This document shows, piece by piece, positions 10,578 to 48,327 of a DNA stretch of 64,000 nt (position 1 is its first letter; the number at the start of each line of letters is the position of its first letter). Origin of the DNA: Pagrus major (Eukaryota; Chordata; Actinopteri; Spariformes; Sparidae); contig NC_133218.1 in NCBI RefSeq assembly GCF_040436345.1, positions 23,421,070 through 23,485,069 of the forward strand. Direction: 5' to 3'. The notes under the pieces were generated by a model. The model was not told where the DNA came from. It saw nothing but the letters and a program-made list of their open reading frames with translations, and made no database searches. Position numbers and translations under genes: made by a program.

Positions 10578-13500
10578 TTACGTGTCCTCACGTCTGTTGT
10601 AGTAGTCACTGAAGAATGTGAAAATACTGATAACCAGACACATCACCACAAACAGCGTCAGGGCGAACCAGAGTACTCGCCGGCTCTGGTAGATCTTGGG
10701 AAAAAAACGACCCACAAGAACCAGGACCTCCTCCATCCTCCTGTGAAGACAATGACCTCATACAGTAAAGATCTGATGGCTCATTGCAGTCAACAGCTTT
10801 ATATGTTAATTCAAATGCAATGACAGGAGTTTCTTTACAGTAAACTTCACTGGGAAATTAGTAATTATAAATTAATATGCATAATTAATATATATATATT
10901 TTTGAAAAGGTTTCATATCGGACAAAATATACGTAGATACTGATATATCTGTGATAGGCCAATATCAGCCAGTAATACTGGCCAACCAATATATCATCCG
11001 GCCCTGATTTGTACTTCAATGCAGCAGACTAAAAGCTTTCTATGTACCATAAGGAGTCAGGGACGTTTCATATTATTGCGTTATGTATGGAACTTGAAGA
11101 CTGGTCATTTGGTCTGTTCACATCAATGCTACCAGAGAAAAGCATACACAACACGCTGCTGTACATTTCTTCAGTTTACCTGCTCGTCTTTATCTTCTTT
11201 CCACTCTCTTCGTCTTTATTTTTCAAATCCAGGAATTTCTCTGCAGTGTTTTCCTCTCCGTGCTTCTCTTCCATGAGCACTTTACTTTGCTTCATTCCCT
11301 CTTGCAAGCTGCATTGGAAATGTTTAGATTCTCAGGATATGCAGTGATAAAAATGCACGAAATACTGATGTCTCATCATCAGGCAGTAACTAAGAATGTG
11401 GAATTTATTGTGGAACTTTTTGTGATCACTGTAAACGTCTCAAAGTCTCTGTATACTTAACATTATATACATGAGGAAAAACTCACTTGTACAACCACAA
11501 CATAACTGATGGGACCCATAAATGTGGTAATTTATGATGAGCAACATGTTCATCATGAAGTATGTGTTTGTGTGACGGCCTCACCCTTTATTATACGCCT
11601 CCTCCTCGATCTTTGCTTTGAGCTCGGCTCTGATCTCGGCTCTGATCTCCTCTAAGTTGACTGAGGGTTTGGCTGGCTCACTTTCCTGCTCCGACACACT
11701 CTTTCCACTGCATTGTTTCAGATGGGAAAGAACAGTCAGCCTTGGACACCACCACATCACAACACTGTTGCCTTGTCTCAGAATGGACAACTGCAGCTCT
11801 GGCGGTGTGCATTACCGACACCATCACAGGCACGGCGAGTACGAACAGAAAGAAATGGAGCTGGCACTTTGCACATTTGTTATGGCTATTCTCGTCTCCT
11901 CACAGAACATCTCGCTCAGACACTTGAGAGCTCCACTCACTTTATAACCAGATATGATTGGAGCCTTGTGCCTGGACTTTGTCAAACCCTTGCACAAATG
12001 TTTAGATTACGACCCAGGATAGAACTGCAGAGGGTTTGATTATTTTTTATGCTTTCAGGGTTATTTTGACCTCGCTGGGGCTTTTTCTGCTCTGTGAGGC
12101 ACATCCTGAAGGTCACACAAACAAGCCAAAAGGTCCCTCTGCAGCACAAAATGCTTTTGATAAGAAGGATTACAAGCTCAGGCTTGTCTTGGCCCATTGT
12201 TTCAAGAACTGTTTGGTGACCTTGGAAATCAAGGAATGGCATGTGTACATGCTGTACATGCAGTCGTGCGTGAGTATGTGTGCGTACACAAAACATACCA
12301 TTCTGCTGCTGGTTGCGCTGCCTCTGTGGGAGTGTTGCTTTTCACATCGTTCGCTTCACACTAGAGAGAAGAGAAGTGAATATTGTTGAAGAATAGTATG
12401 GCTTTCTAACAATAATACACAACTAACAGGCGGGATAGAAGTATTCCCACCCTTTACTTAAAGCAACATGATGTCACTTTTTTTTTTAACTTAAAATAAC
12501 AACTTCTGAGTCATTTTGATGATACAGTGTCTTGTAATAGGGTAAATGGTGTCTCTTGGGGGGCGCCAAATCACACAATATGGCAATTTCTACATAATGT
12601 TGGTTTAAGTAAAACTACAGACTTAGTCATGTTATGGGCTCAATGTATGTATCAAAAGTAAGCACTTATTTTACAATCAAATGACCCCTGTGACTATTAC
12701 ATTGTTAAATATGACGCTATGAGATGCATCGATGTGTGAACTGCACTTTACTGTTGGGGCTGGTGCAGAGGAGCTAGTTTTAACTACTTTATATACAGAT
12801 TTGTTTAAAAAGTCAGCAACACAATTTTGCATTCGTATTTTGGAAATTTCCCTGATTTGTGGCTCATCACAGAAGTTTAGAGGAAATGTCTCTTAACCTA
12901 CCTGAATTATGACAAGAGACCCCAACTTGACCCTGCTTTTTGTAGACTGTATTTCAAAACCTCAGATAAACTCTCGGATAAATGTAGTTGATTAAAAAGC
13001 AGAACATTTCCTTCTGAAAGCAGTGGGGTAAGTGGTTTAATAATGTAACTTGGGAACACTCAAGTAAAGTACACAAACCTCAAATATGTACTTAAGAACA
13101 GTACTGGAGTAAATGTAATTAGTTACTTGCCACCACTGACACTTAATATAGATATGACCTCAAGCAGAATTTCTTATTTATAACCAGTAAATTACACCAA
13201 ACACTATTTATCCATTTTGAAATAAAAACCAATGTTTCTAACCCCAGTGTAAGTACGTCTTATTCAGCAATCTGAGTGAGTGGGTGTCACTTCATTAAAT
13301 GCTTGATGTGTCATCCTGCATCATTTCCCGACAGGACAGGAAAACCTACCAGGACAGGAAGAGCGGCACCAGTGACAGGTCCCGTGTTGGGTCCCGTGGT
13401 GGGGCTCTGGCCTGGGACTGGGCCAGGGCCGGCTGTGGCTGGAGTCTGACCCGGGATGTTCAGTAGGTTAAACTTAGGCACCACCGCTACGCTCACCCTA

Positions 13501-16500
13501 CGTCTGGGTAGAGCCTAGAGAGGAGACAGAACATGAAACAGTGTCAGTGCTGAGAATGAACCAAAAGGTTGAAGTTTGAAGCGCTTTGAGTATAATGGCT
13601 AAACAACTATACTTAAAACGTAAGCTGACATGGTGAAATGGCAAAAACATTATATCTGCATGTTAGCATGCTGACTGTGACATTTACATTGAAGTACAAC
13701 CTTATAAAGCTGCTAGCATGGCAAAAAAACAAACAAAAGAAAAACAGCTAATTATTTAAGTTTACCTTTCCAAGTGTGAGCGACATTGATCTCGATGGCC
13801 GTGGAACTCCATCATCTTTGTGATATCAGACAAAGACACACAGATAACAGCATTATGTAAAGACAGAAACCATCAATTTCTTTCTTTATCGTTCCCAAAG
13901 CTGCAGTGAAGCTGTGTAGGAACACAGTGTTAGGATACTTACTGTAAGTTACAGTGGAAAGTTTATTTTGACAGAGCACAGCAGCACTGATGCTAAAAAA
14001 GGTGCACGCTTTATCAAACCCTTGCATGGATAAATAAAGTTTCAAAATATTTTCCATCTACAAGCATTAAACCTTTTGTAGTGGAAAAATGTCAGATCCA
14101 GTTGGCTGAGTTTCTCTCTGTGTTTTCTGGTGCTTTATCTGAACGAGGTCTCCAGTGTCGTCTTACCTCCAGTGTCTACAGACCCCCCATAACAGCGATT
14201 TGAATTCTGGTTGGCCAGCTTCTTAAACTCCATCAGCTCTGCGTGGTCCTTCTCATATGTCCTCTTCAGATTTTCTACGTATTGCATCATGACCTCAGTG
14301 GCCTTGTTCATACGTTTCTCCTGTTGAACAAAGAAAAGTCAGTCAATGTAAGCCTGCAGAGGAGTTTGAACAAATGGTTCTTTGAGGTAGGGGCTGTGAA
14401 AAAAGGTGAAAACAGAAATAATCAACTGTTTCACTCAGAAAAATATAACTGTCCAATATACATTTCACTTATCCCATGACCTCACTACTATTAAGTTAAA
14501 ATATAGGTTTTTAAAGCTGAATTAATGTTTTTTTGGCCACTAGGGGGCAGACAAGCTACATAGCAAGCTGAAAAACACACACTCCTGACTTTTTTAGCTA
14601 CGTAACTGCCTACTAACTCATCCAATAGAAACAGATCAATTTATCATCATATTAGCACCGAATTCTCCGCCTTCATATGAAAAGAGTCCCAATACTAACT
14701 GGCGTATTACCTCCGCCAAGGAGGTTATATTTTCATCAGGGTTGAAGAGATTTCTATGAAATTTGGCTGGAGGATGGTTCCCGGCCCAGAATAGACCCCA
14801 TTAACTTTCGGTGTGCAAGGGACATTTCATCAGGGAATAATCAGGCGTATTTAGGTGGCTGGTATCTGTGAGTGAGTACAAATGGGGACTGTTGGGCCTT
14901 GGTGGAGGTATGTGCTCCACCAAGTGCCATTCTAGTTCTTTGTTCATGTTATGGTCTCCCCAACTCCTGAGAAAAATATCTGGCTCTTTCAGCTAGTTGT
15001 TAAGTTTGTATGTCTGCTGCAGTGTGCTTATCAGGTGTTTGCTGAAAAAATGCCTGCTAGAAACAGGGATGATGAGAGCTGTGAGAATGAACCACGCGAT
15101 AAAATGTGTACTGAAACCAAAACAATGAGCTAAAAGTGTCTAAAATTCTCCATAAAGCTGCAACATATGGTGATGGCTCTTTGGTTCATCCCTACAAGCA
15201 ACCTCCTAAAGGGACTTCTAGTCATCTGAACTGGATCAAAAACGACATGCTATTAGAGGTGACTGTGCAACTGATAGAGCCTTATCATTAGAGTGTTATT
15301 GGCAGCAGTACAAAGTAGAGACAGAAAAGGGTCATGATTCTTCTTTATAAATAGCTGAAGACCTTTGTACTGTGAAAACGGTAAATATGCTCTTTGACTG
15401 ATGTGTGCTTTGGCCGGCAGGAGGTCAGCCATGACATCAGATAAAAATCATTTGTAAAATGCTGGCATCCTGGAGAAGACAGTATATTCCAAACAATAAG
15501 ATACAGTATATAGTTCTTTCTCTTTATCTGCCCTCAACTGTCCTGCATCTGCGCTCTCTTAGTGTGTTTACACTAACTGCACCTGTCGAACTGCTCCGAC
15601 TATCTCTGCTCTGCTGGAGAGCCGTGTGGCCAGTCGGTGCAGCACCGCCACGGTCTCGATGAGGCGCTGGTAGGCCTCACGCTGCTCCAGGTTCTGCCAC
15701 TGTGGTGAAGTCATCTGCAAGAAACACAACAACATGGTGCTACAACTCTCTCAGGAACACAAAGTGTACATCACTGTCCCTTTTGTACCTGGGATTGGAC
15801 TCTTACAAGATAAATATTTACTGTGGGACACTTCCAGGAAACATTAAGCAGATAAATGAGTACTAAAGAGCCGGAGGGAGCTCTTCTTTTCTAGTGAGTT
15901 GATCTAATATCAGTTGCTGTTTTCGAGGACTGACCTTCAGTGCTCCTTTGAACTCCTCGAGTTCTTTCTCTGTGTCTTCCTCAGTCAGGTTCCTCTCTCT
16001 CTCTGCCTGTTTGAGCCGCATCTCCAGTGTGTAGTTGTCGTTGCGAAAGGCCAGTGACAGCTGGACAAATGCATTCTGTTGGGAGGAAGTCACTGCAATA
16101 TAACACTCAGAATGGCACATTGAACAGCACATTAACTAGAGATAAGGTGCTGGTGATGGCAACACGCCAACTTAGTGGAATAAATTCATAGAAAACTCTC
16201 CCACAGAACAGCACACACACATACACAAGGAAGTGTGGTTGATTACATCGTACTAAAATCCTTTTTCATTGGTGAACGTGTGAGGGAGAACCGAGCATCC
16301 CTGAGAGCAGCATGGGGACAAGCTGTGATTCTGACATTTGACCTGATGATGTTTTGCTGCCCTGATCAAAGCCAGTCAACACAGTTTTCCAACATACACG
16401 GCCCACAGCTGAGAGGAAATATACGACCTCTGACTGTCCTGATGCAGACGCATCCCCGAGGGAGCAGCGAGAGGGGCCGCAGCCAGAGCCTGACAGCGTC

Positions 16501-19500
16501 ACTAGTGTTTGCATTTTCTCCACAGGAAATCACTCTGACTCTCTTCGGTCTGATCAGGAACAGAAAACACTTTCCTGTTGACAGAGCAGCGCCAAATCCA
16601 GGCAGCAGATTTTTATGACGGTGTAATTAACTACTGTAACATAATGGGTTTGTATCAACACAGGGCTACACGTGTTCAGCAGCGAGTGGAACAAAACATC
16701 TGGCTGCACCGTGTGAAACAGTTTGGACACAGTTTACTGCTCAGAGTAAACAGATTACTGTTGGTGGTCAGTGTTGATACCCACTGCAAGATTAATTACT
16801 GTGGAGCGTTTTAAAAGTGGAAATGAGAATATGAAATTGAATATATTTTGTTTGGGAAACAAAAAATGGCACAAAGTAGCCTAAATAGCTGTAATGACTG
16901 ATTTTGAATAAATCAAGTCTCTTATTACTGTTTAGCCTTTTATATACAAGCACAGTGACTTTTGATATGTTAAATAGTTTGACATATTTGGAAATATTGT
17001 GATTTTTGCTTTCTTGTTGAGAGTTAGATGAGAGGATCGATACCACTCTCATGTCTGTACAGTAAATATGAAGCTGCTGCCAGCAGCAAGTTAGCTTAGC
17101 TTAGCATACAGACTGGAAACAGTTAGTCTTGCTCTGTCCCAAGGTAACAAAATCCACCTATTAACACTTCTGAAGCTCATTTAGTAACACATTATATCTC
17201 ACTTGATTAGTCTGTACAAATGAATAAAAAGTTGTGGTTTTGGAGGAGGCTATGTCATTAACATGCTATATGTCACTTTTTTCAATCTGTACAAAAATCA
17301 GTCAGGCAGAGACTCAAAGAAATTCTTTGTACAGATTGTTGTTTTTACACTTATGTTTTTGTATGGATTAAACAAACAATACATTACATGTTAATTAGTG
17401 ACATTGACAAGTACTAGTATGTGGATTTTGGCATGTGGTACAGACATGAGAGGGGTATCGACCTTCTCATCAAACTCTCAATAAAAAGCAGGAATTATAA
17501 TATTTCCCAATATTTCAAACTATTTAACATATCATCATTTAAACTGACAAGTACAAGCAGAGAACCACATGAAAACAACTGTGGCATGCATGGCCAAAAT
17601 AGTGAAGTTTCAATCCTTCATCATGAATGGGAATAACTGATGTTTTTCCTGATTTTATTTTGTTATTTTTAGAATAAAAAAATGCGTGATAACCGTGTAC
17701 AGATCAGATACCAACCTCAACTTCTTTTTCAGTGAGTGGTGGTGCACTGGAATGAAATCAAAGAGGAACTGTTAGTATGGTAAGTAATGTCAATGAAGTA
17801 TTTGTACACAGTAAAATTAAGATGCAAGGAGGGTTATTTTTGAGTGATTAAGGAAAAATAAAGAAAAAAAGGTAACAGTTAACTTAAGCAGCAGTTAGTT
17901 TGATACACACCAGCCTGGCAGACCTCGGTGGAGTTTGAGTTTTCTCAGCATCACATCTGAAATGTTTGGCATGGCGTCAGACTTCTCCTTCGCCTCCTCA
18001 CGACTGGCTGAGTTTGTAGAGGGTAGAGGGCCTGCAGACAGATCGCTGCATAAATCATGCATGCAGAAACACCTTTTTCCAGAGAAGTTTTAATACATGT
18101 TTCAAGTAATTCAAAACAAGTTTTAAGTCAAGACTCAAGTGCTTCTGTGTGTAAAACAAGACGCCTTTAAAGGGACTATGTAACTTTTCCTAAACTACAG
18201 AACTACAGAATAATAATAATAATAAATATTGAAATGGTAGCACAAGATAAGAAGAGTCACTAAGTCAGTGAACTCATTCAGTAAGTTCAGTAAGTTACTG
18301 TACATAGTAAAAATAACCTAGTTTGCTAATGTTAGCCATCTTAAGCTACCAGTCATACCAGACCAAGCTCAGCTTTAGCATCAAATGCACTGAAGTCCAA
18401 GTCCAAGTCCAAGTCCTGATTTTTGTGACCTAAGTTTGACTCCAAGTCCAAGTCTAAAGTCTCCAGCTCTCTCTCTCTTTCCAAAACAAAACACAAAACA
18501 CAAAAATAATTTCCTCATTTCATCTCCCACAGGTGGTCTTCTCAATCATGCCACCTGCTGCTGGAACATGAAAACAACATTTATTTCTCTGTGATGAGAT
18601 TGCCAGCAAACGGATGACACAGAGGAAAATAACAAAAGCAAATCATCATCATAATTTTCTGACTGGAACAGATTTTCCCTGAGATTCAGGAAGTGCACAC
18701 ACCCTTGGCGACAGTGCTGACTGCACCTCTGAGAGCACTCTGTCTTACATGGACAAGAGGGCAAACAAGGACTGTTACCTTTTTCCTGTTCAGCAGCTTC
18801 ACTCAAGTCTGGCAACTTGGATCCCAATATGCTTTGGTTACGCATCAGCTTGTGCTCCTGTGTAAACAAACGCACACACGTAAGAACAAAACATTTTACA
18901 AAAAGAGTAAACTGCTAATGACAGTGACATGTAATCTTCTGAACCAATTATTTACCTCTTTGAGTTTAGACAGTTTATTTAGACTCCCTGGCTGAGCAGG
19001 GAGGTCTTTGTACCCTGAAGACTTGAAGACAGAATCCCTGGGCTTGTCTGAGAGGGTTTCCTCTGGTGTAGGAGGGAAATTTGGGGCTCCATTTCTAGAA
19101 TTAAGGCCGCCTACAGCATCCCAGGAAACAGCCCTCATTAGTGGAGGGAAGGCCCCAATCGTCTTGATCTCTGCTGTACAGGGGGCCTGTTGGGTAGGGG
19201 GTCGGGGGACGGGCTTGGCCACCCCTGTAGCTGGGGCCTGGTTGGGGTTTCGGCCTGGACTGGCTCCCTCGTCCCCTTTAGTGACTGCTGGAGGACTCTT
19301 GGGTAGAGCAGGGTCACAGTTCTCCTTCTGAACAGCAAAACGTGGTGTTAGAGTCCCAGAGGACACTTTCCTCTTCTCTGTGGGCTTCCAATCCATCAAC
19401 AGCCTGTTGCCCTGAAGTTAGCAAGATATGAACTATCATTAATGCCTTTACCATCCCTGTTGTGTTAATAAACCTGCAGTGTTTGAGGTCCAGCTCTGTA

Positions 19501-22500
19501 TTTGTATTGATAAAGAATGTAGTAAACTCCTGCACACTGTCAAAACAAAAGGCTCTGTGTGGCTGCACTTAGGCATACCAGTGTTTTGAGCTAAATGCTA
19601 ACAGTAGCATGGCAACATGCTGTACAGCATACAGCTGAGGATGATGGGAATGTCATGAGTGTGTCAGGCATGTTGTTGTATACCAAAGTACTGGACAAAT
19701 TAAATCAACAAAGATCATCAGTCATTCCAATTAATGTTAAAGGGAATGTGAACCAAATTTCTTGGAAATTCATCCAATAGTTGTCGACATAGTATTTTAC
19801 TGAAAACCACAAATGTCAGCCTCATGGTGGCACTAGAGGAAAAGTTAGTAGGACTGAATCTCTGGGGACCATGACTATCTCTACGAAAGTTTTTGCAGCT
19901 CCACCCTGAAGACTTTTCTCAGGACAAGTGATAAGTTGCTGAGTTTATACACAAGTAAAGAAGAGGTCAATTAACATTTTTGCAGCTTGTGGCTCAAGTA
20001 TCAAGACGTTTAATTCCCGACAAGGGAAACCCTCCCTCCCCCTCAAAACGTAGGGTTGACAGAGTTCAGGGGTTGACTATGTTTTAAGCTCGATTTCTCT
20101 GTCATACAAACCTCTCTATCAGGTGTACATGAGATAATATTAAAGGGCTGCTGCAACTTAATCCTTCGGTGCAACTCTAACCATCAAAGTTACGTCCACT
20201 GAAAGTGCTTGTTTTTTTTGCCACTTTCAAGCTGAGGTTGTTTTTGTTGTGTTGAGGTTGTGTCTGACAACATTTCGGAAACGATCCCTACAGAGATAGA
20301 GCTTTTCGTTCAATAATAAGATCAGTTTTGTTGTCAAAAACACAAGTCTCATTCAAGGAGAAGTCTCGTTCTGAAACCACACGAGATGTGAGTTGTTGAA
20401 AGAGATGCAGTGAGTGAATCTGTTAATCTGACCTCCTGATCCTGAGTCTTTAAGTCATCTCGCACTGAAGGAACCTCCAGAAGCTACAAGAGAGGACAAC
20501 ACAGCAGATTTTATTTTGTTAATAAGTATTACTTAGACCAATAAGTATTGAGTGTTTGATTAGATTAAAATGAGGCAGGGTTGATTCTTAAATGGTTAGG
20601 GCAAGGGGAGGTTTCTGTTCATGGAGACAAAAACTGCTTTATAAGCAAATTAGAGCAGAAAAAACACAATAAAAGGGAAATAAAATGAACACGGCCAGTT
20701 TTGAATGGGGGGAAATGAGTATATATATCTGCATTACACCTAAGCCCATCGATGGATGTTGTTTTTAATAACAATTACAGTCATTTCTTTACCTGCCCAA
20801 CCAACTGAGAACTGACATGGGTCGCCTCTGAGGGTCCTACAGTGAAAAGCAAAAAGACAACCAACAAAATCAAAATTCTCACAAACCAAAAAATAATAGG
20901 AAAATAGAAAATAAGGCAGAAAAGTTCTAATTAGAAAGTAAAAAGCTGTTTCTTAATGTGTCCCCAGTCAAACAATGAAGTGCGTTACCAGTTTGAGGAG
21001 CCACAGTCAGTGAGCTGCTTCTAGATGAACATGGTGAGGATGACGGAGTTGGAGTTGGAGAAAGACCTGCGGCAAAAAAAACATTGTGAATTCAACCAAA
21101 TTGACTTAAAACCTAATTGAGTCCAGTGTGACTTCAATCGCCTTTTTAAGTAACAAGCTGAATCCAATTACAAGTATTTGAGTCTACCAGAGCACGCTCA
21201 GAAACTTCTTATCAACTCATTCTTAGTTTAATTACACGCTACAGTTTGTACCGTGTTTGTGTCTGTGTATGTGTGTTTGTTCACTACCTGTGGGTGAGTC
21301 ACCGAGGCTGCCGGTGGAGCGACGGCCGCGGCGCGTCAGGAAGCGGTCGCTGACCTTCTTGGCCTGTTCGAGCAGCTCCAGGTTCTTCTGTCGATCCTCC
21401 TCAGAGAGCTGCAGCTCAGGCAGCTGGTCTTTCACCAGGTCGATCACATTACCTGTGCTGTCTGCGAAAGACAACGCATGCATAAACAGGGACGTTACTG
21501 ACATGGTAATCAGGAAGTGTTTTTGTATTATATATTGTAAATTATTAAGAAATCATCAGGTTATAAGGCCCTGAAAAAATACAGTGTATTTAGGAGATCT
21601 TTCGGAAATGTTTAAGCGCAAGAAGGTAAAAAAGTCTTCAGACTGGAGTCACTTGAAGAGATTTAGGAGGGCTTCCTCTGTGTTAAATCTCATCCCAATG
21701 AATAATTCACAGATGGATGTCATCCAATAAATCAGCTGATGAGGGTTGGCCAGGTCAAATATATTTTTATCCTCCCTTCTCCGCAGAAACGGGCTACAAG
21801 CTAAACAAGAGTAATCAAACCAGCAGAAGCATTCAAGGCATGTGGGAGGACAGATTCATCTCTCAGGACACCGATGACCAAACTTAGTCGAAATGTTGTG
21901 AAGCTTCTTGTGTAACTACGCAGCACGAGAGCGATTATTTTCTTTTTATTCATCCTTTCTGGAAAGATAGATGTTTCAATGAAATTAATCAAAGCTGTTT
22001 GGTGAAGTAGGCACTTCAAAAGAAAGTATCCACTCAGAAACAGCTTAAAACAACTGTTCAATTATAGAAAAACACTCCAGAGGAAAATCTAGGACTCCAA
22101 GTTGGTGCTGGACGAAAGTAAATGTTGCTCATGATAACATCAAATAGTTCTCATAGTGTTGTGGTTATCTTTAGATAATTACAGCTGCAGTGTGCGTGTG
22201 TGTGCGCAGGGTTTACCCACCGACTGTTGTGATGGGTCCTCCTGATGAGTTTCTGGCCAGGCGAGCTCGGGGACTGTGTGGCCTGAGAGAGGAAACAGTA
22301 ATGATTCAGACACACTGTCCTTGTTCACAACCAAAAAAAGAAGAAAACTATTTCAGTGTTTGAGATGGTGGACGATTACCTGGCCTGCTCGAGGGGTCGT
22401 CCATCTTGTTGGACAATATTGGCCTGCTGGGGGTAGACGATGGTGGGGGCAGTCATGATGACAGCTCGACTTTCACTTGGTGTAGACTGAGAAAAAAACA

Positions 22501-25500: not shown

Positions 25501-26374
25501 CCAGGACCAAGAAAGTGTAGTTCAGATGTAATTTGGATGAAATGACCCTTTAAATCTGAACAAAGTAGGACTTGCTCCTGCTGGGGCTGCCAAAGCTCTC
25601 AGATCCTATTAGAACCAATCTGGTATTCTCAAAAAAATATCAAAAGAACCAAGCATTAAAGATATTTTGTTTTTAAAACTTGCAGTCAGGTCAGTTTTTA
25701 TTTATTCAGCTCAAAGCCACAAATCACAAATTGTTCTCAAGGGGCTCCAAGTCTCCAACCTGAACTGATATCAGTGAGTTCAACCTCAGCAGTGGCTCTG
25801 CTGTGGATGATTTACTGTGATAGAAACGTAAAATGACCTTCAAAGACTCATAAAACATTCAGGATTCAGTGGAATTACAGATTAACTTGTAAACATTTTG
25901 TAGGAAACCACTAAAATACAAGTACAGATCCAAAAAAAGTAAAATATTTATCAAACCAAATCCCAATATGGTATCTTAAAGTTATCCAAATGCTTCTCCT
26001 GCTGAACTGAAAGCATTTTGAAGGCAAAGAAGACCCCTTTTGTGTGGGAGCAGACTTTAGCAGCAACACTGGTGAACTTCCTCACCAGAGTCAAATCGAT
26101 TATCCAGCGTCGGTTTTTACAGCCTCACATGCTTTAGCAAAGAGTGTGCACTCACTGTACTGGGAGAGCTGGAGGAACTGTCCAGATCCTCGGGGGAGTC
26201 CTCCTCTTCCTCGGGCAACGTTGGCATGGCGGGGGGCAGCGAGGGGCGCGAGCGGGTGTGTGGGAAAATAAAAAGTCTCTCAGCAGCACAGGGGGCGTCA
26301 CAGGACTCCTCGAAGATATGATCACTGTGTTCAGGAGGAGACCACTGCTGCAAGAGCTCCTCCTTCTCCTGGAG
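10578..26374 (-). CDS. irag1: IRAG1/MRVI1 conserved core, inositol 1,4,5-trisphosphate receptor-associated PKG substrate
   Basis: Exons, upstream first: 26374-26156, 22486-22380, 22282-22221, 21461-21288, 21066-20989, 20836-20793, 20483-20433, 19411-18956, 18857-18779, 18031-17911, 17746-17716, 16075-15935, 15714-15583, 14320-14167, 13815-13766, 13514-13350, about 11700-11585 and 10740-10578. This is about 780 residues. Conserved IRAG1 blocks are clear: [78 protein letters not shown] and [18 protein letters not shown]. The PKG/PKA-type site [13 protein letters not shown] is also present. The protein ends in a hydrophobic tail anchor ([19 protein letters not shown]) and a short lumenal tail. 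Family role: it holds IP3 receptors and cGMP kinase I-beta together at the ER and lowers calcium release when phosphorylated. The Met at 26227 ([16 protein letters not shown]) matches the start region of short human isoforms. The acceptor of the exon near 11700 is uncertain. Confidence 0.93.
10895..11010. repeat. Dispersed GATATATC/GGCCAATAT element
   Basis: A palindrome-rich block (TTCATATCGGACAAAATATACG to CCAATATATCATCCGGCC) of a kind common in fish genomes, in the last irag1 intron. Confidence 0.5.
12459..12607. mobile_element. Short TTAA-flanked MITE
   Basis: It begins TTAAAGCAACAT and ends ACATAATGTTGGTTTAA, which are imperfect inverted ends. Confidence 0.55.
13030..13142. repeat. GTACTTGAGTAAA-type dispersed repeat fragment
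   Basis: CTCAAGTAAAGTAC, GTACTTAAG and GGAGTAAATGTAATTAGTTACT blocks. A longer copy in the other orientation lies at 30062-30730. Confidence 0.55.
13590..13725. repeat. GCATGTTAGCATGCTGAC / GCTGCTAGCATGGC repeat fragment
   Basis: Short copy of the family that is clustered at 36770-37850. Confidence 0.5.
14710..14938. repeat. Dispersed element CCTCCGCCAAGGAGGTTAT ... TGCCATTCTAGTT
   Basis: The opening palindrome CCTCCGCCAAGGAGG, the middle ATTTCTATGAAATTTGG and the end CCAAGTGCCATTCTAGTT are hallmarks of a repeat abundant in fish. Confidence 0.6.
16960..17540. mobile_element. Element with long terminal inverted repeats in an irag1 intron
   Basis: About 95 bp at 16963-17059 returns inverted at 17440-17538 (shared GACATGAGAG, GGTATCGA and ATATTTCCAAATAT-type blocks). 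The interior carries TTAGCTTAGCTTAGCATACAG. Confidence 0.65.
18390..18445. repeat. AAGTCC hexamer minisatellite
   Basis: Repeated AAGTCC units, in two runs separated by a short spacer. Confidence 0.65.
19560..19915. repeat. Dispersed repeat, opposite-strand copy of the 36770-37850 family
   Basis: Contains CCTCATGGTGGCACTAGAGG, GGAAATTCATCCAATAGTTG and GAATCTCTGGGGACCATGA, the inverse of blocks seen near 36830-36900. Confidence 0.55.
24540..25553. mobile_element. Possible TTAA-bounded composite element of about 1 kb
   Basis: It begins TTAAAGGGTCAGTT and ends AATGACCCTTTAA, so the ends are inverted (AAAGGGTCA). The interior near 25080-25290 shares AGCTGACCAATCAGAG with the 7845 and 40385 elements, suggesting nesting. 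Confidence 0.45.
25690..25760. repeat. Fragment of a common fish repeat (AAAGCCACAAATCACAAATT ... CTCAAGGGGCT)
   Basis: Short degenerate match by recognition only. Confidence 0.4.
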
Positions 26375-30730: not shown

Positions 30731-31648
30731 ACTCCTTTTTATGTAGCCATTTTCTATTATTCTACTTTTTCCACAGCTGTAGCTGTTGTTTCTTTCTGCC
30801 AAATAAGAAGAGGAATAATTAGACAAATAAATCACTGAGAGTTTGCATGATGACAAAGTGCTGACAGAGGCAGAAAAACTATCGCCTCTTGAAAAATGAC
30901 ACAGGCCAAACAAAGATGCCATCCTGCCCTGCGGGAGGCTTGTCGGTGCAGATAGTCTCCCCGGCCGACCATGAGACTGAGATAAATATTGCAGTGTAAT
31001 TGAATCACACAGATTATTTCCTGTGGGGGGAGACGAGGACAGAACATACAAGCCTGAACATAGACTTCCCACAAAGACATGTACAGTCTTCTTACAGTAC
31101 ACTCACTTCCTCTAAAGAAAAACATTTCTGTTATAAAATTAGCTCCTCATTGCAGCCGGGCCTACAGACGCTCTTTCCTCAGAGGGAGACGAGGGGACCG
31201 GCACCCTCCTCCCCTCCTCTGTTACATAAGCCCGCTCCCTGTTGCCAGATTTGTTTAAAATTTGGTTGTGTGAAGCACAGAGTGCAGGGCCAGCAGAGGA
31301 AGTGGTTGCTACACAGACCAATAATCTGAGATAACAGAGCAGAGGAAGTGTGTGACATGGACGGACAGAGAGATGTAGAAACAGGTGAGGGAGTACATGA
31401 ATCCTTAAGTTTTAAAAAATGCATCGAGAAGGAGAAAAGATGACGGACACAAACACCAGGTTATGTAAACTCACCCCGACAGTTAGAACAGTCCAAAACA
31501 GTCCAAAAAAAGTCCAAACGCGCACCTTCTTGCACAAGTTTGACACAGCTGCAGAGACAGAGGCTGCATGTGTCCACCTAAACGCATCACCCACTGAGAC
31601 CTCACAAGCCGATCATGTGAACCTGTCCACAGAGAGCACGCACATTAC

Positions 31649-32990: not shown

Positions 32991-32994
32991 TTAT

Positions 32995-33010
32995 TATATA
33001 TATATATATA
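32995..33010. repeat. (TA)n microsatellite
   Basis: Short TA run at the end of the LINE remnant. Confidence 0.7.
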
Positions 33011-34165: not shown

Positions 34166-34172
34166 ATATACT

Positions 34173-34205
<33 letters not shown>

Positions 34206-34206
34206 A
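34173..34206. repeat. (TA)n microsatellite
   Basis: Uninterrupted TA repeats following the SINE remnant. Confidence 0.85.
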
Positions 34207-35206: not shown

Positions 35207-35235
35207 CTTGCTGCAGCCACCTCGTCCTGAGCCAC
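35207..35235 (-). other. irag1: Candidate 29-nt micro-exon linking the two halves of irag1
   Basis: A long pyrimidine tract ending CCAACAG precedes it and a strong donor AAG|GTAAGA follows on the minus strand. The 29 nt plus one carried base encode GGSGRGGCSK with no stop. The phase fits both neighbours. Confidence 0.6.
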
Positions 35236-36030: not shown

Positions 36031-36378
36031 TGCAGCAGTTTAAATCCCTTTACTGCGATAAAGGTTTAACAAATATAAAACCTCCATTAATCAAAAACAA
36101 CTTGAGTAACGCAGCATTTCACTGACAGATTTTACTTTATGTCATTACGCAAATCATTGAGTACTTGATGTACTGTAGAAGCTTGTACATACTGTAGGAA
36201 TGTGATGGTAGAAATGTCCACACAGATACGTCTGTTTTTCTCTTCAGGTCACAGCCTCTTTTTTCTCTTTCCTAGAAGCATTTAATTCACATTCCAGCTC
36301 AAGTGATTTTGGTATTTCTACCTTTGTCTTATTTGTAAATTCACCATCAAAGAGCACTTTGTTTAGAGCCACCGCACA

Positions 36379-36397
36379 GAGAGAGAGAGAGAGAGAG
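36379..36397. repeat. (GA)n microsatellite
   Basis: About nine GA units. Confidence 0.85.
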
Positions 36398-36769
36398 CAT
36401 TAGAGACCCACATTTCTAAATTATTTACATTCAGTCTCCACTGGATCTTCATTCATCACACAACCTTGTTGAAAACAGCAACATAAAACCTTAAAAACAG
36501 GTTTTATTCCTGTAACGTTACAGTGATATGCCCAAATGTGATTTAATATCTTATATTAATGTTTTATTAGTTAAAGGAAGATAAGGGAGGAATACAAAAT
36601 AGCCTTAAAAGCCTTAATGGAGGCAGATTGCTCTCTAACAGCATCAAAAACACAAAAGCACCAGTGTGTGTACTGCAGCACTGATGGACAAAACTCAGTG
36701 GTTATTATTGTTAGTAATGACATTTTTCTTCATAGGTTTATGTAGTAGCTTTTATTCATTGCTCTCTGG

Positions 36770-37850: not shown

Positions 37851-37859
37851 TGTGTGTGT
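37840..37859. repeat. (TG)n microsatellite
   Basis: About ten TG units at the edge of the repeat cluster. Confidence 0.85.
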
Positions 37860-39206: not shown

Positions 39207-39460
39207 TTAAAGGAAAAATTTGACATCTTGAGAAATACACTTATTTGCTGTCTTGTTAAAAGACGAGTAGATTGGTACCATTCTCATGTTAATATGGTAG
39301 GTGGTAATGGTATGGTAGGTATGGTTGTACGGCAGCTGTTAGCTTAGCTTAGCGCAAAAGACTGGAAACGGGGAAACAGCTAGCATGGCTTTGTGTGGAA
39401 GTAAAACAAATCTGCCTACCAGCACATCTAAGGATTAAATAAGTTATATTTAAGTTATTT
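39207..39460. repeat. Third copy of the AGCTTAGCTTAGC element
   Basis: Carries TACCATTCTCATG, TTAGCTTAGCTTAGC and GACTGGAAACGGGGAAACAGC in the same order as the 16960 element. Confidence 0.55.
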
Positions 39461-40147
39461 AATGAGTACAAAAAACTAAGTGTAAAAACAACATGCTGTA
39501 GGTAGTTGAGTTTTTTGTGTTTTTGTTGTGTGTATTACACAAACAAGATATAATGTGGTAATTAGGGGGATTCAGAGGTGTTGGTAGGTGGGTTTTTTGT
39601 AAAATCACTCCTGTATTGCAGCTAAAAGCCTGCATTGTGTACTTTGTGAGCACGAATCTCAGAATCAGATTTCTCAATGTCTTTACATAAACTTGCTCAT
39701 AGCACTTGAGAACCATTAAGACGTAAATGTAAAGTGGGCTGACCCACAGGCACTGAGAACAGGAAACTCACACTCACTGGTTTAGCCCTTTCAATTGAAA
39801 AAAGTCTGACAAAGTATAAAAGTTTTGTCAATTAAAATGGGCTGTAGCTAAAAATACTTCACCCTGTCTCTGTTTACATAAAAAAAAGAAGAAAATCATT
39901 CAGACCTCCCTTAATTCTCCCCATGGCCCTCTTTGATAGATAACATACCCTCCCTCAGAGCTTACTCTCTCTTCCTCCTCACTGTACCAGCTGTTGTGTG
40001 CAATGTAAATATCTGCTGGGCCTATTTTCAGACATCCTCAGGGATTACCATCAGAGAAGGAAGTAGCTTTAATTCATCAGTGTCTCACGGAGTACCCTCA
40101 ACCACGATAACACTGATGCTGTATTTCTGTCATGCAGACCATCATAC

Positions 40148-43100
40148 CATTCATGGGTAGCTGTGGAGGCTCGCTGACTTCTGGGATTACAGGAGGTGGA
40201 GGAGGACTCTCCGTTCTGTCTCCGTCTTCAGGCTCCACATTGGACTCGTCTGTACAGCCTGTGGCATCTGTTCCTGGATCAGCTGGCAGACTGGGACCTG
40301 AAGACTGATTATGAGAAACTACAAATCAACTTCATGTGTAGAATTTATATCATGTAAAATAAGTCCACACCGATGGAAGCTCCTCTCTTCCACAGAAAAC
40401 TCTGCTCCTAAAATGCCTCGTCAGTGGTCTCGCCTTCAATTCTGTGACTTCATGACATCACACTACGTCACCATGTCACACATTTGAATAATTTTTGCCC
40501 AGTTGGCACATAGGAATTAATTTAGCACTGCTGATCTGTTGTTGTTAGCTGGCTCAGGTGTGTATGAGCTGACCAATCAGAGCAGACTGAGTATTTGGGA
40601 GGTGGGGCCTTAAAGAGACAGGAGCTAACACAGAGCTTTTTAGACAGAGGGGGAATAAAATGCTGCTGCAATGGACAGTGTTAGAAAACTGCTATGTTTT
40701 TTTTTTTTGTTTTTTTTTTGTTAGCATTAAAGCATGTAAACCTATTCTAGTAGTAACCCAAAATAAAATTATGAACCTGAAAATGAGCATAATATCTCTC
40801 TTTTAATAAAGTACTATTACTAAAATTATACATTTAAGTCTTATTTGATTTAGGTTGAAAGTCCAGTGATGACGAGTGAAGCTATAAACTTTTAAATGTC
40901 AGGATAACGATGTTACAGCCTTATGGCAAAAATAGACACACACACACACACACACACACGGCACCCCCATGAGGGGTCATCAGATGCCTCTGCGGGGTCA
41001 TGAGATGAAAACAGCGCAGGAAATAGAAAATCTAATTCTGCAACAATATTAGTTATGTTTACTTTTTGGGATATTTTTCTAGTCTTTGCTATCTTCTTTC
41101 AAAAAAGTTATACTTCTTCAAGACAAAAAATTAAAAAAGAAACAAAAAAACAAAAAATGACTTAACTACTACAACTTAACCTTGTATCTACGGGTCACAG
41201 GTGAAAAAGTTTTGGTACTTCTGCCGTAAAAGTTTACATGTTCATGTGGTCCGAGAGAGGATTTTATGCAAATATTTAAAGTTTTTTTTAATGCTTTACA
41301 AATGCAATATCATCAAGTGCATGAAGTCTAAAAGATTTGCTAAGTGTATTCACACACTCTTTCACTCTTTTTTTTTATTATCAAGTTTTGCAGCACAGAG
41401 ACGAGCAGTGTCTCAACAGTGACAGTAATGTCAGAACCTCAAGTTAAAATCTTTAATACCAGCATGATTTATTCTGGCAGTTTTTGTTCCCACAGGAGTG
41501 TTATGACCTCTACAAGACAAAATAAATCCCTGATTATAAAAACATCTCCATGCAGCAGTTCCCTGGTGTTCATGTTGTAAAATACTGACTGGACGAGTCT
41601 GGACACCCGATGGCAATCATATGATTTTATAATATGCTGGCGCTTCTTCACATTATTTTACAGAATATTTAGTTAATTCAGATTATATATCCAACATGTC
41701 CAGACACTGACTTCAGCAGAGCAACATACACATAAAGTTACATCACTTTAACCAATGTAACCTTCTGAAATCAGAATCATTAAAAACAAGTATATCACTT
41801 GTTACTCTGTAGCAAAGCAAACACTGAATTTAAACACAAACCTGAGGAGGAGCTTCTTCTGTGACTCCGGCCTCCAGAACATTCAGCTGCTCGTCAGTGT
41901 CGGCGGCTCGGTCCAGAGCCTTCTCCACCCTCAGGGTGATGCTCTCCATCCTCACCCTCACCTGGCTCACCCTCCGCTCGCTCTCTCGCACCAGCTCGGC
42001 GGTCTCCAGGGCGCTGTTGACCATCGCCTCCATCCTTCTGAGGGTCGTCAGAAGGCCGTCCGCGGTCACCTGAAAGTGGGATTGCTCCTGCTCTGAGGCT
42101 GCTCCACCTGTGACCTCCGTGGCCACTGCTGCATCCCTCTGATCCTTCACCACCTTCTCCACAGCTCTGTCTGGCTCTCCTCTCTCAGTGTTGGTTCCCC
42201 TGTCGATATGAAGAACTCTACTGCTGTTCTTCTGCTCTGCGACACACTCCTGTGCAGATCTCAGAGAGGCTTGCAGGTGACGGACCTGCTCTCTCATATC
42301 ACTGACCGTCTGCTCTGCCTGCTGGAGCTTTGCTTGTGTCTCAGAGAGCTCCTGGACCGAATAGGTTTCTTTCGTCCGTGCCTTAGCGCCCTCTACACTG
42401 CGGGCTTTCCACCAGTTCACCACAGCCACCTTCTTGGCCTCCTGGATCTGACTCTGACTCCCGGTCTGGCTTTTCTTTTGCTCCAAGGCTCTGCACCGCT
42501 CCTCCACCTTCTCCCCTTTCTCCTCCCACACACACTTGTGCAGCTCCAGCTCCTGCAGCCTGAAACCACCACCACCACAGCTTTATAAACATCTCCTTTA
42601 CACACTGTTATGTCTGTAGTTACCAAGGGGTACTAAAACTGCACTTAGCCCCGATAGACCCTAACACACAGAGGACAGTAACTCATGTGGGTTGCATAAC
42701 GGAGATGCCCATAAACACACTGTCATATCCAGACACCCCTTTTATTAGCCTGAGGAAGCTTCTCAGAACAGAGACCAACATCAACCAAATCCAGTTTGTT
42801 ACCATAACAGGAAAAAGGGAGGTAAAAAACTCACATACACATTGACAAGCTGCTGCTTGATGCGTGCCTGTTGCTGCTGGCGGTGAGGAAAAGGCCTCTC
42901 TTGTGTTTCTACTGGAGCAGAGTCCTGCGTCTAAGAGATAAGACAGATTTAAACACATACATGTTACTACATGCCACAGGTATCCTCTGTTGAGTGTCCC
43001 CTCTCTGCTCACCCTCTCAGGATACTTATTGTGCAGAAGAAGAGCTATTTCTGCAGACTTGATCCTGTGGATGATGCTCTGAATATCATCGCTGTGTGTG

Positions 43101-46100
43101 TGCAGGGATGGGAGGCTGATGTCGTCCAGACCTCTGTGATGCTGCTGCAGACCAAGAGAGCGACATGAAACAGAAAACCACCACCATGAAAACATAAACT
43201 GTTGCTCCCGAGTGTTTCCTACCTGCTGCATATCCTGCATCTCGCTCTGCAGAGAGCGGTGGTTCGGAGGATCTCGACTGTAGAGACTCTGAGGACTGAT
43301 GCAGTGTCTGTCGTACCTGCCGGGGACAGACAGACGAGATGAAGCTTCAACCTTCAACTATTTGGGAAAATTCATACACAATATTGTTGAGATATTCTAT
43401 AAATCATAATGTCACTCTGCTCATAAGCTTGCAGTTATTTTTCTTTTTTTGATAAAGCCCAGGTAGATGCTTGAGATGCCTCTTGAGCTTGTGCTTACAC
43501 AAGTCCCATTTATTAAAATTACCTGAGGAGAACCTGGTGTGAATGTTCCTGTAACCTCATCAGGTCTGACTGCAGGCCCTACAACAGCAGAGCAGAGTTA
43601 ATTCATGTCTTTATTTTTCTGTTTATTTGACAGGGACAATACATCTAATCAAAATGCAACCAGCGCAATGTATACAGGATTTCTAGGCACGGCTTATTTG
43701 CAGTCCTCGTCCCTTGTTAGGCTAATGTGTGAAATAACAACCAAATGTACATTTAAAACCATTTAAATCAAATCTGATTGACTATTTTAGTTTAGTTCTG
43801 CCCACTTCCTGTACATTAATGGTGTACTCGTTCATCCCTATTTGAAATGATTAATGGTGTTATCACATTGAACATGATGTAACCTATCTGCACTACTCTA
43901 TATTAAGTATGACATGTCAAATAGGAGTGTGTAAATCAAACCTCGATCATGTTGTGATTCTCCACATGAGAGCTCTTCATCTTATCCATGAGAATGTCTT
44001 TCTGTACGGGAACATTCGAGACACGAGGTAAAATAAAAACATCCAACTGACCATTTTTTCCTGATCAAATCGCGTAGATAGACCAACCTTTGTGATTTCT
44101 CCGTCTTTCAGCGCCAACATAACCAGAGTTTTCTCGAGTTCGGCCTGCGAACATTAGGATGTTTAACTCTCAGTTCAAACTCCTAATATAGAGACAAACA
44201 CAAGTGTGTGTTTGAATTATGGATCTGTTCCTACCCTCAACTCAGCGTTGGCTTTTCTCAGTTTGTTGATGCTGTCTTCAGAACAGGTCCTTTCAAAGGT
44301 AAGTTTTTCATTCTGCGCAGACACAAATGTTTTACAAGAACAGAACATCAACTTTTTCGAAAATTTGGACTTACATTTAAGATCTACATTACCTTGTCTT
44401 CAAGCCTCCTAATGTGACCCTTCAGGCATTCAACCTCATTGCTCTGGTGATAAAAAAAGATTCAAACCTAAATATTTGCCATAAAAAATACATAAATACT
44501 TAGACGGTAGCTTCACAGGTGGGCTGCTAAGTTTGTGCTGTACCAGTTTGGTGCAGCTGGTCTGAGTGCGACCTGCTCTCTCCTGGGCCTCTTTAGACGC
44601 CCGACGGGTCTCCTCCAGTTCTTCTGTCAGGGATCTGCTTCTTGCTGCTGACCGCTGAGCACTGCACACAACCAAAAACACATAAGATCTTATTGTTTTA
44701 GTCAGCAGAGGATCCACCTTTATTCAGCCAAGAAAGAACAAGTGATCAATATAAATGTATAAAAGAATGAGGGTTGAGCCACATTATCTGAGCTGCTCGA
44801 GTGCAGTTTTCTACAACAACGAAAACCTTCTCTAAGATTTAGTGAGTGTTATAGGCAGTCTGGTCTGGTTTCAATAGCCTCATAGCCACAAAAGATGCAT
44901 AAGTCACTCTATGAATGTATAAATGTTACTACTGAAGAAGAATTTAAATATGAAAGAAAGTCTATGACATGATTTATGGTCCATTTGACAACTTTGTAGT
45001 GTATCACAGGTTCAGAAAATACAGATCATGTGACTCACATTTAAGTTGTAGATATGTTAGTTTCTGTATTAAAGAAACACATTAAAGTGTGTTTACAGGT
45101 CTTGGGGAGTACTTCTGCATATGTGAAAAAAGTAGTTCAAAGCCTTTTGTGGCTCCACAGGAAGCTGTGTGTAATCTGATAAACTGCCTCCAGTGATGTC
45201 ACTCAGTGGCTAAGTTGCATTGTGGGTAATGTAGGCACCACGTTTTGAAAAGAAAGAAGAATGTGTGAAATGAAAAGACAATATCTCTGATTCTGCTGTA
45301 TCGATTTGGATCATTTGTTTTGAATGAGTCCAACAGTGTTATAGAAATGCAGTGTTAGACCAGTGGACTGCTTTTCAGAAACTGGTGCCTAAATTACCCA
45401 CAATACAACTTAGCCACTGAGTGACCCCAAGACCTGTTTAAATAAAAATTAAGTAAATTGTTCCCATGCTTTCCACAGGTAAAATAAACATGTATCTTTT
45501 TAGTTTACTTCTGCTTCAACACAATTTTCCCAGTCAGTCTTAATGTGCATAAGCTAGATTGGACAATGCCTTTTCACTCTTTATAATTCAAGCTTCTTAC
45601 GTAGATAATATTATTTTTAAATGTAGCTAAAAAGTGCCACTTATAAGGGATCTGATTCAGGCTGCAAATTTTGCAAGTCCATATTTTAAACATATTTCAG
45701 TCCGTATTTGCACATTTAGAATCTGCTTATTAAGTATTTGGGATCTCTGATGAATGACATCTTATACTCTGTGTTAAATTTTGATTTTGTGTTGGAAGAA
45801 ACTGAAATTAAATGAGATAACGAAGTGCCTTTGTATAGTACACATGGCTTAGATGAGGAAGACAGTAGTTAAACCTCCACCTGGCCAGCTTTGCTCTCAG
45901 CTCGGTGATCTCCAGAGTAAGCTGCAGGTTCGTGTCCTCACACTGAGCCACCGTCCTCAGCAGGCTGCTGTTCTGCTCGCTCAGCTTGCGGTGAGCGTGC
46001 TTCAGGTCAGCCACGGTGCCTAACAGCTCTTTCCCATCACTGAGGCCAAACAAACAGTTAGTGGTGAAGTGTGACAACACACAGTGATAACGGGAGGTAA

Positions 46101-47038
46101 ACACGCACAGTTATTAAAGGAGTGACACTGACCAGGAACACTGGTGGCTGTCTGAGGACGCAGCTTTGCTTTGAGAACCTGAGAAATCCAAACCTGAAAG
46201 ATAAAAAGGTTCAGTGAATTGTCTTCTGATGTGATTAAGATACAATTTCTCAGAAGTCTGAACAAAACAGTGGCAGCCTACCTTTTACAGGCAGTCTAGA
46301 AGAGTCTGGCCAAGATAAATGACTGCCATCCACATCGGTGCTGAAACACAAGAACAGTCTCATAGAAAACGATGATTTATAAAAGACTTAATCAGCAACA
46401 CATTAGCTGGACACAAAAAAAATTTAACTGTGTTTGCAAAATGATTAAAAATTGAATATCATGCCTATCCGCAGCCCTACATGACATCCACAACGTTGTA
46501 GTTTTGTCTCACCTGTCCTGGCTGCACTGTGCGATCCACTGCCTCATGGTGGAGTGGAAAGTCTCTCTGCCCACATGTGGGTCCTGACAGTCAGGGTCGA
46601 GCAGCCATCGCAGGGAAGCCAGCCGGTCCTGCTCCGGACTCTGAGCCGTCATGGTCTGCAGGTACTGAAGGATGGTGGAGGCCAACACCTCTCCTGAAAG
46701 ACGAGAGAGACGCAGGAACAATGACTCTGCTTCAGATGATTATTTGAACCTGTTTTGTTGAAATCAACATCAGTCCGTGTACCTGTGCTGGAAGTGTTAC
46801 ATGTGTTATACATGATGTCAAGCAGTTCATGTTCAGAGAATCCTCCTGTGTCTTTGCTGACGTCATCCCTCGTTTCACAGTCGGGTGGCTCCCACACTGA
46901 ACATGTAGAGATGAAGAAAAGTTAAAGTACGTTGATAAACTAGAAGTATACTGTACATCTAAAGCAAATAAAACATTTGTCTTGTCTTTGATCAAATAAA
47001 AAGGAACTGCAACACTTACCATCATTTCCATCAGACAT
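40148..47038 (-). CDS. KASH5-like EF-hand and coiled-coil module, probably the N-terminal half of a long irag1 product
   Basis: Seventeen exons: 47038-47020 (ATG), 46896-46783, 46693-46513, 46340-46282, 46193-46133, 46039-45875, 44661-44544, 44443-44393, 44312-44235, 44144-44088, 44001-43942, 43578-43523, 43316-43223, 43144-43013, 42930-42839, 42559-41842 and 40304-40148. They give about 737 residues with every phase compatible. Residues about 28-105 (EVLASTILQYLQTMTAQSPE, then LLDPD and FHSTMRQWIAQC) match the degenerate EF-hand domain that opens KASH5 (CCDC155). Long heptad stretches follow (SLTEELEETRRASKEAQERA; LLTTLRRMEAMVNSALETAE), then an acidic proline-rich end (ESPPPPPVIPEVSEPPQLPM). 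The last exon ends in phase 1 at a GTATGA donor, so it is not obviously terminal. Reading on past that donor reaches a stop within about 15 codons, which would be the end if this were a separate gene. No KASH-type transmembrane tail was found between 40 and 41.8 kb. The start has A at -3. Confidence 0.85.
40385..40806. mobile_element. MITE-like element, copy B of the 7845-8307 family
   Basis: Same order of internal blocks as copy A, including ATCACACTACGTCACCATGTC. The 3' end reads ATCTCTCTTTTAA. An expanded T tract interrupts it near 40690. Confidence 0.65.
40936..40959. repeat. (CA)n microsatellite
   Basis: About twelve CA units. Confidence 0.85.
45097..45437. mobile_element. Palindromic (fold-back) element with long terminal inverted repeats
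   Basis: It starts CAGGTCTTGG and ends CCAAGACCTG. Both arms carry CACTCAGTGGCTAAGTTG and the inverse, with GTGGGTAAT next to each. The left arm has an extra insertion of about 70 bp. It lies in an intron of the KASH5-like block. Confidence 0.7.
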
Positions 47039-47087
47039 TGTGCTTGTTTCTCCTGAATCCCCCGGACTGTCACATTCTTATATGACC

Positions 47088-48327
47088 TGATAGTTTAATA
47101 AACATGAAATATATCCTTTCTATAATCTATTATGTTTAAAAGGTACAACTCAAAGTAGAAATATGACAAAACTCATAGTCTGTGTATCATTTTAATATAT
47201 TAAAATCAATAAATATCTAATATGAAATTAAATGTCTATGATTTAAACAGAAACAGGGCTACTTAGAACATATTTTCTTTGTCATCGTGCAGTGAGGTAG
47301 AAAAATAAAGAGTTTATTAACTCATAAGCAATAATAATGACAATACATGTTTTGAAGTGGAAGCACACAATAGCTCAATCAAATGTCGTACCTACTAAAT
47401 TTCCAATACAAAAATATCAATTCTGTATGTGTTGAATATACAGGTATGACAATATTGTGCACAATAAGATTATAAGGTAATGAATTTAATTGTCTTATAG
47501 TTACATACTCATCAAATATCACTTAAAAAAGAGAAATAAGTTATTAAAAAATAAATAAAATACTTACTTCTCAATCCAGTCCAGTCCTCTGTAAAGAAAA
47601 AAAAAACAAGGGTTTCAAATGATAAATCAGGAGCTTTATGTTTCCATTACCATTTCTCCAACCTTCCTCTGATTCCCTGTGATGGTTGCACAAGAAGTCT
47701 TCAAGATGCTCTTATGCTTGTTTTAACTGCTTCACATCAAAACCAGCTGACACCCCCCAGCCCACCTCTCCCCCACCTTCCTCCCCCATCCCACTCCTGC
47801 CAAAACGCTGCCCTTAATGGGTGTCAATTTAAATTCACCAGGTTCACATATCAAATTCACGGTCTGCCAGGCATTTCCTCCACTATTTGAACTTTGAAGT
47901 CAGAAAATGTAAGAAGCCAATTTCATTATTTTCAGACAATTAAAAAATAATAATACTGATATTACAAATGAAACTGGATTTTCTTCATAATTGTCTGACT
48001 TTCATCTGCGTGTTTAGTTCCGTTTGTAAATAAACTATTACTGAATCGCATTAGCTGAGTGAAAACCCACTGAGAGTATTCCTGGAGAGGCTAAATATAT
48101 TTGAATGCAGATATCCACTGTGTGTTTTCTTCAGGGAGCATCGGGTGTTCAACTTCAGGTGGAACGCTTCCAAGATCATGATCTCGCCGGACACAATTTC
48201 CGTTGCACCGTACGTCTATTTGTTTCCTATCGGAAGCATGAAGTAGCTACCAACAGACAGCGGGCTTAAACACTTTTTAAAAATATTTTTACAAATCTAA
48301 CTTCAAGTGGATTTTTCGTCCGCCAAG
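47088..48327. promoter_or_regulatory. Divergent intergenic and promoter region between irag1 (long) and ctr9
   Basis: The first long-irag1 exons point left and the ctr9 start codon points right, about 740 bp beyond the candidate noncoding exon at 47588-47568. No coding sequence was seen. The ctr9 5' UTR probably lies in 48150-48327, which is somewhat richer in CpG than its surroundings and holds an ETS-like CGGAAG near 48230. The start sites are not located. Confidence 0.5.

Follow-up and report, generated by a model that had tools for sequence, protein, structure and literature searches.

The window, a stretch of 64,000 nucleotides from Pagrus major (C4:23421070-23485069; positions given without a contig are counted from its first letter), carries on its minus strand a block of exons resembling KASH5, followed by exons for the core of IRAG1. 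This arrangement raises the question of whether the two blocks belong to a single gene with one long product, or are two neighbours that happen to lie in the same order and orientation. A chain of 38 coding exons can be followed through both blocks, from an ATG at 47038 to a TAA at 10578, as a single frame of 1591 codons plus the stop that contains no internal stop codon. All 37 introns are of the GT-AG type, and the phases match at each of the 37 junctions. The chain consists of 17 head exons (47038-40148), one exon of 29 nt (35235-35207) and 20 core exons (26374-10578). The first-pass annotation had proposed that head and core exons are spliced in one frame, and the junctions bear this out; its 17 head exons and its 29-nt exon also stand, but the 18 core exons it listed come to 20, and its totals of 36 exons and about 1527 codons are replaced by 38 and 1591. 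An acceptor near 11700 that it had considered uncertain is an ordinary AG before 11707, in phase. The features of the locus are given below.

48328..48330, plus strand: start codon of ctr9, head-to-head with the irag1 head
47568..47588, minus strand: candidate upstream exon, 5' of the irag1 start codon, with acceptor ttttctttacag and donor gtaagt, by eye
46513..47038, minus strand: irag1 coding exons 1-3, with the ATG at 47038 and the EF-hand pair (residues 35-98; EF-hand_9)
43523..46340, minus strand: irag1 coding exons 4-12, of which exons 6-12 encode the KASH5-type coiled coil (residues 148-333; KASH_CCD)
41842..43316, minus strand: irag1 coding exons 13-16, end of the head; exon 16 (42559-41842) has 718 nt and ends in phase 0
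40148..40304, minus strand: irag1 coding exon 17, linker, 157 nt, phase 0 to 1
35207..35235, minus strand: irag1 microexon 18, 29 nt, phase 1 to 0
26156..26374, minus strand: irag1 exon 19, the first 49 codons of which lie upstream of the presumed short-form Met 26227
10578..22486, minus strand: irag1 exons 20-38, the IRAG1 core including its coiled coil, transmembrane anchor and 13-residue tail

The candidate upstream exon (47588-47568) was also picked by an ad hoc gene finder. The methionine at 26227, which presumably starts a short form and opens the conventional IRAG1 core, is taken here to be the equivalent of the human start.

The gene facing irag1 is presumably ctr9, a name that we take from its N-terminus, and its TPR exon matches Pfam. 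The starts of the irag1 head and of ctr9 are 1.3 kb apart (47038-48328), with a CpG-rich patch between them, and the sequence suggests that the two have a common promoter region. A synteny scan of four exons placed the AMP deaminase, link-domain and TPR exons above the Pfam cut-off and the MIF4G exon below it (27.6 versus 30.8). We assume the order of the human neighbours of IRAG1 to be AMPD3, LYVE1, CTR9, EIF4G2, and we regard this order as present here, with names beyond the domain assigned by eye. The link-domain (Xlink) exon, at 6693-6902 on the minus strand, appears LYVE1-like by eye.

A Pfam search of the product, which the first-pass annotation had recommended, returned EF-hand_9, KASH_CCD and MRVI1, all above cut-off. 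Residues 35-98 correspond to EF-hand_9 (44.6 bits, cut-off 37) and residues 148-333 to KASH_CCD (137.3 bits, cut-off 43.3), consistent with the earlier description of the first half as KASH5-like; residues 1061-1580 (query residues 325-844) correspond to MRVI1 (PF05781; 403 bits, cut-off 27), and the second half is thus plain IRAG1/MRVI1, as had been claimed. When the genome was scanned with the MRVI1 profile, the best exon on C4 reached 90 bits. Sequence searches of the PDB yielded only generic coiled coils for the head (best E 0.076) and a single chance-level match for the core plus tail (E 0.21).

KASH5 (CCDC155), a transmembrane dynein activating adaptor, shares with irag1 an EF-hand_9 pair followed by KASH_CCD, and it is tail-anchored. 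Between its coiled coil and its membrane helix lies an unstructured region, and the protein ends in a SUN-binding KASH peptide (PMC9242646), whereas irag1 has the IRAG core, with its 403 bits for MRVI1, before the anchor and carries no KASH peptide. Nine KASH5 residues surrounding the helix of the dynein light intermediate chain have been named by Agrawal et al. (2022; PMC9242646). Compared with a human KASH5 sequence that fits all nine of the positions quoted by those authors, five of these contacts are identical in irag1 (Y60, R73, L77, F97 and M101) and four are changed (I36L, T40M, V64M and L98H). Measured against the same sequence, three of the nine are identical in the paralogue irag2, described below. 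The calcium ligands of EF-hand 1 are degenerate in irag1. As the EF-hands of KASH5 bind dynein without binding calcium (PMC10071310), the degenerate loops are no objection to a similar role in irag1. We lean slightly towards the view that the irag1 head binds dynein. CRACR2a and other adaptors with an EF-hand pair likewise place this pair on helix 1 of the light intermediate chain, ahead of a coiled coil (PMC9242646), but they are not IRAG-family ER proteins; the likeness is one of mechanism only, and binding by irag1 is presumed.

At the opposite end of the product, the only strong membrane helix is defined by a 19-residue window with a hydropathy of 2.8 at residue 1560 (about 1560-1578). Thirteen residues follow this window and end in REDT, and a SUN-binding KASH peptide, with its PPPX end, is absent from the irag1 C-terminus. 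Mammalian IRAG1 (MRVI1) has the same MRVI1 core, a coiled-coil region that binds IP3 receptors and a C-terminal ER anchor. This coiled-coil region is described as the part of IRAG proteins used for IP3 receptors (PMC10298018), and by analogy we infer that the irag1 core binds the IP3 receptor and cGMP kinase.

The continuity of the long frame depends on the exons that join head to core, which were scored for coding character with exons 17-19 kept out of the training set. Exon 17 (52 codons) is coding-like in frame, with 4 of 25,532 overlapping intronic windows being open and scoring as well. In exon 19, the 49 codons that precede Met 26227 are also coding-like, 7 of 25,646 intronic 50-codon windows being as good. 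The 29-nt exon has good splice sites, and within the stretch of 13.8 kb two phase-fitting open rivals, both of which use an acceptor at 31548, score slightly higher than it does; this exon is the softest part of the irag1 model, plausible and not unique. The splice-like candidates in intron 18 (31548-31457) have this acceptor in common, two scoring above the 29-nt exon and one near it, and they could be alternative exons. Because exons 17 and 18 together total 186 nt, fusion of the head to the core is independent of the 29-nt exon: the phase is 0 both at the end of exon 16 and at the start of exon 19, and the two join in frame.

Several alternative ends are predicted in the same region. Skipping of the 29-nt exon alone would end the product after 749 codons, ahead of the membrane anchor. 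The acceptor of exon 17 is weak (3.9 bits), and use of a near-equal competitor (3.6 bits) located 7 nt downstream would lead to a stop after 719 codons. Read-through of the exon 17 donor (40148) would add 16 residues and then reach a stop at 40098; an ATTAAA lies 25 nt farther on, at 40073, and is possibly the intronic poly(A) end of a head-only mRNA, made either by itself or together with the fusion. Since intron 17 spans 4.9 kb and intron 18 spans 8.8 kb, an internal promoter may account for most of the irag1 mRNA. A scan for membrane-type terminal exons between 41842 and 26374 gave ten candidates, none with a PPPX-type end, the best having a hydropathy of 2.06 as against 2.8 for the real irag1 anchor. 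In intron 18, ten candidates for a separate first coding exon of a short irag1 passed the set thresholds, none of them convincing.

Searches of the same genome (786 Mb) revealed a second locus with EF-hand and KASH_CCD exons, on C14, in which exons for an IRAG core occur about 20 kb downstream of the KASH_CCD exon on the same strand.

C14:8903665-8933491: irag2 (lrmp), with EF-hand, KASH_CCD, IRAG core and a KASH tail ending in LRHNGQPPV

We assign this locus to irag2 on the strength of its tail, which is matched by the KASH peptide of human IRAG2 in PDB 8b46 (E 4e-10), and of its core, which scores 332 bits with MRVI1. Its head scores 64.8 bits with EF-hand_9 and 212.6 bits with KASH_CCD, and it aligns with the irag1 head by BLASTP with E 4e-29 and 28% identity over 309 positions. 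When exons 3-13 of irag1 are set beside modelled exons 2-12 of irag2, phases are equal at 11 of 11 and lengths at nine of 11, one of these nine being a 57-nt exon added by hand after the gap had been read. The irag2 chain is the output of an ad hoc gene finder whose only training sequence was irag1. On irag1 itself this finder overpredicts: at the strictest of the settings tried, it recovered 33 of the 38 exons and predicted 43 in all. Ten of the 11 exons compared came from an unforced run, and six of those served as anchors for the final one. Continuity between the head and the core of irag2 (8913772-8927020) is a model and the weakest part of the chain, including two poor mini-exons (8920718 and 8922900). 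About 8 kb upstream of irag2, single exons match branched-chain aminotransferase profiles below the whole-protein cut-off, in agreement with what we take to be the human BCAT1-IRAG2 neighbourhood. Just upstream of the irag2 head there is also a long coding-like exon (C14:8901490-8902216; NPVESICRKLQTIQ...) with no Pfam match.

A long head joined to an IRAG core is already known in kind for IRAG2. The N-terminal region of zebrafish Lrmp (IRAG2) is described as homologous to KASH5 (Garner et al., PMC10071310), Lrmp is the product of futile cycle, maternal mutants of which show no fusion of the pronuclei (PMC9481976), and the fue mutation, in the EF-hand, blocks pronuclear migration (PMC10071310). 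The in-frame layout that the first-pass annotation had envisaged for a fish protein with head and IRAG core is upheld. A KASH5-like front of this kind has been printed for zebrafish Lrmp/IRAG2; the new point is the IRAG1 copy. Among the matches listed by a literature search that covered few subscription papers, there was no report of a KASH5-like head on IRAG1. Zebrafish Lrmp resembles the product described here in being an IRAG-family protein with a KASH5-homologous N-terminus, and irag2 of the same genome shows that layout together with the KASH tail. In contrast to Lrmp and irag2, irag1 resides in a different syntenic block (AMP deaminase, link-domain gene and ctr9), has a more divergent head and lacks a KASH peptide in its luminal tail.

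Taken together, these observations suggest that head and core very probably belong to one gene. That irag2, in the same genome, repeats this order speaks for one ancient gene over two neighbours, and a single gene is the simpler account because unrelated neighbours would have had to keep order, strand and phase at two ancient paralogous loci. The opposing account, in which a KASH5-like gene at 47-40 kb is followed by a separate, conventional irag1 at 26-10.6 kb and the frames are compatible by chance, appears distinctly improbable to us. It is weighed slightly higher because of the ATTAAA at 40073, which, with the stop at 40098, makes a head-only mRNA possible on paper, as does the alternative acceptor with its stop at codon 720. 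The start of mammalian IRAG1 lies near the position of exon 19, which also counts for two genes, as do the lengths of mammalian forms a and b, which at 911 and 859 residues (PMC10298018) are too short to include a head of roughly 735 residues. On the other hand, the head block ends in a splice donor and no convincing membrane or KASH exon emerged from the scan, the coding signal runs on upstream of the short-form Met in the same frame, the order and strand of the two blocks recur in irag2, and the zebrafish fue mutation, located in the EF-hand, has been assigned to lrmp itself (PMC10071310, PMC9481976).

If there is one gene, as we favor, the upstream block is likely to be the 5' half of irag1, and its sequence predicts a long, ER-anchored, IP3-receptor-linked Irag1 with a dynein-adaptor-like head. 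A related reading, which overlaps with this one in gene structure and differs from it in function, holds that the long mRNA is made and that its head is a relic without a dynein function, being either a dimerising coiled coil only or non-functional. Although irag1 scores below irag2 in both KASH_CCD (137 versus 213 bits) and EF-hand_9 (45 versus 65), has degenerate calcium ligands in EF-hand 1 and carries a histidine at pocket position L98, we regard a relic as unlikely: the EF-hands of KASH5 bind dynein without calcium (PMC10071310), irag1 retains more of the nine contacts (five) than irag2 (three), whose zebrafish counterpart is described as functionally required, and the frame is intact over 735 codons with an exon structure common to irag2. 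We give almost no credence to a LINC component, that is, to the long product as a true SUN-binding KASH protein like irag2/KASH6 and KASH5. The KASH5-like head and the KASH peptide that ends the sister paralogue irag2 would fit such a role, but only 13 residues follow the membrane window of irag1, and they end in REDT; we rejected irag1 as a KASH protein on account of this tail, which is too short and has no PPPX.

For the long, ER-anchored Irag1 that we favor, a mechanism can be proposed. Starting from the promoter region common with ctr9, transcription would yield a long mRNA with 38 or more coding exons, to be translated into a tail-anchored ER protein of 1591 residues. The head would dimerise via its coiled coil, and its Ca2+-insensitive EF-hand pair would hold helix 1 of the dynein light intermediate chain, as KASH5 does, with the IRAG core binding IP3 receptors and cGMP kinase. 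The short luminal tail would keep long Irag1 in the ER and out of a SUN-bound LINC complex; since irag1, unlike irag2, has no SUN-binding end, an ER role is more likely for it than a nuclear-envelope role. In this way long Irag1 would serve as a dynein adaptor of the ER and its IP3 receptors. The conventional headless IRAG1 might come from a second, internal start near exon 19, and inclusion versus skipping of the 29-nt exon might switch between the anchored adaptor and a soluble head of 749 residues.

The recurrence of this layout in irag2 also bears on the origin of KASH5. Across the whole genome, KASH_CCD gave four matches and EF-hand_9 gave nine, with C14 and C4 the only places above cut-off for either profile. 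Of the two weaker KASH_CCD matches, the one on C15 is a repeat-like frame, and the one on C11 is a long coiled coil that by eye resembles rootletin. Six of the seven weaker EF-hand_9 matches were inspected, five of which are calmodulin- or troponin-type by eye, the sixth, on C15 and seen in antisense frames only, fitting the same type; the seventh, on C8, gave no locus. The irag2 head (266 residues), used as a genome query, returned seven matches, all on C14 and C4. A separate kash5 locus was found neither above cut-off with EF-hand_9 or KASH_CCD nor with the irag2 head anywhere in the genome. A third KASH5 locus was accordingly rejected, irag1 and irag2 being alone above cut-off, and absence at this sensitivity is not the same as proven loss. 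In passages of two reviews, no meiotic KASH partner is named for zebrafish. An additional locus was detected for the IRAG core.

C7:18268235-18270180: third IRAG-core (MRVI1) locus, with no head match

Directly upstream of this locus is a ribosomal L1-family gene, judged by eye to be rpl10a, and close by is a nuclear-receptor gene judged in the same way to be ppard. TEA-domain genes occupy five places in the genome. On C4 one of them is separated from irag1 by 0.27 Mb, on C7 another is separated from the IRAG-like locus by 3.8 Mb, and the genome scan found none on C14 or C23. In human, where the positions of the TEAD genes, KASH5 and BCAT2 provide the background, TEAD2 is located beside KASH5, TEAD1 on the IRAG1 arm and TEAD3 beside RPL10A. 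The data are compatible with, and are not proof of, an origin of IRAG1, IRAG2, KASH5 and the C7 gene as four products of the vertebrate genome doublings.

Because neither hallmark KASH5 domain has a third locus above cut-off, KASH5, IRAG1 and IRAG2 may be ohnologues, and the suggestion in the first-pass annotation that the KASH5 and IRAG families share an ancestor is strengthened by the repetition of head and core, in that order, in irag2. We consider the matter evenly balanced as to whether IRAG1, IRAG2 and KASH5 arose from one vertebrate gene that had all of the parts, with lineage-wise loss and with the adaptor roles split between irag1 and irag2. Such an ancestor would have combined the EF-hand head, the KASH5 coiled coil, the IRAG core and the KASH tail; the IRAG core would since have disappeared from mammalian KASH5, the head from mammalian IRAG1 and IRAG2, and the KASH tail from fish irag1. 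On this view the dynein adaptor at the ER and IP3 receptor would be long Irag1, and that of the LINC complex would be irag2, perhaps in meiosis as well.

Should the long product be made, a dynein-adaptor head and a scaffold for the IP3 receptor and cGMP kinase would be united in one ER polypeptide, and sites of calcium release could be moved or held by a microtubule motor. The same reading, if true, would explain the origin of KASH5, and it would make irag2 and irag1 candidate dynein adaptors of fish meiosis and pronuclear migration.
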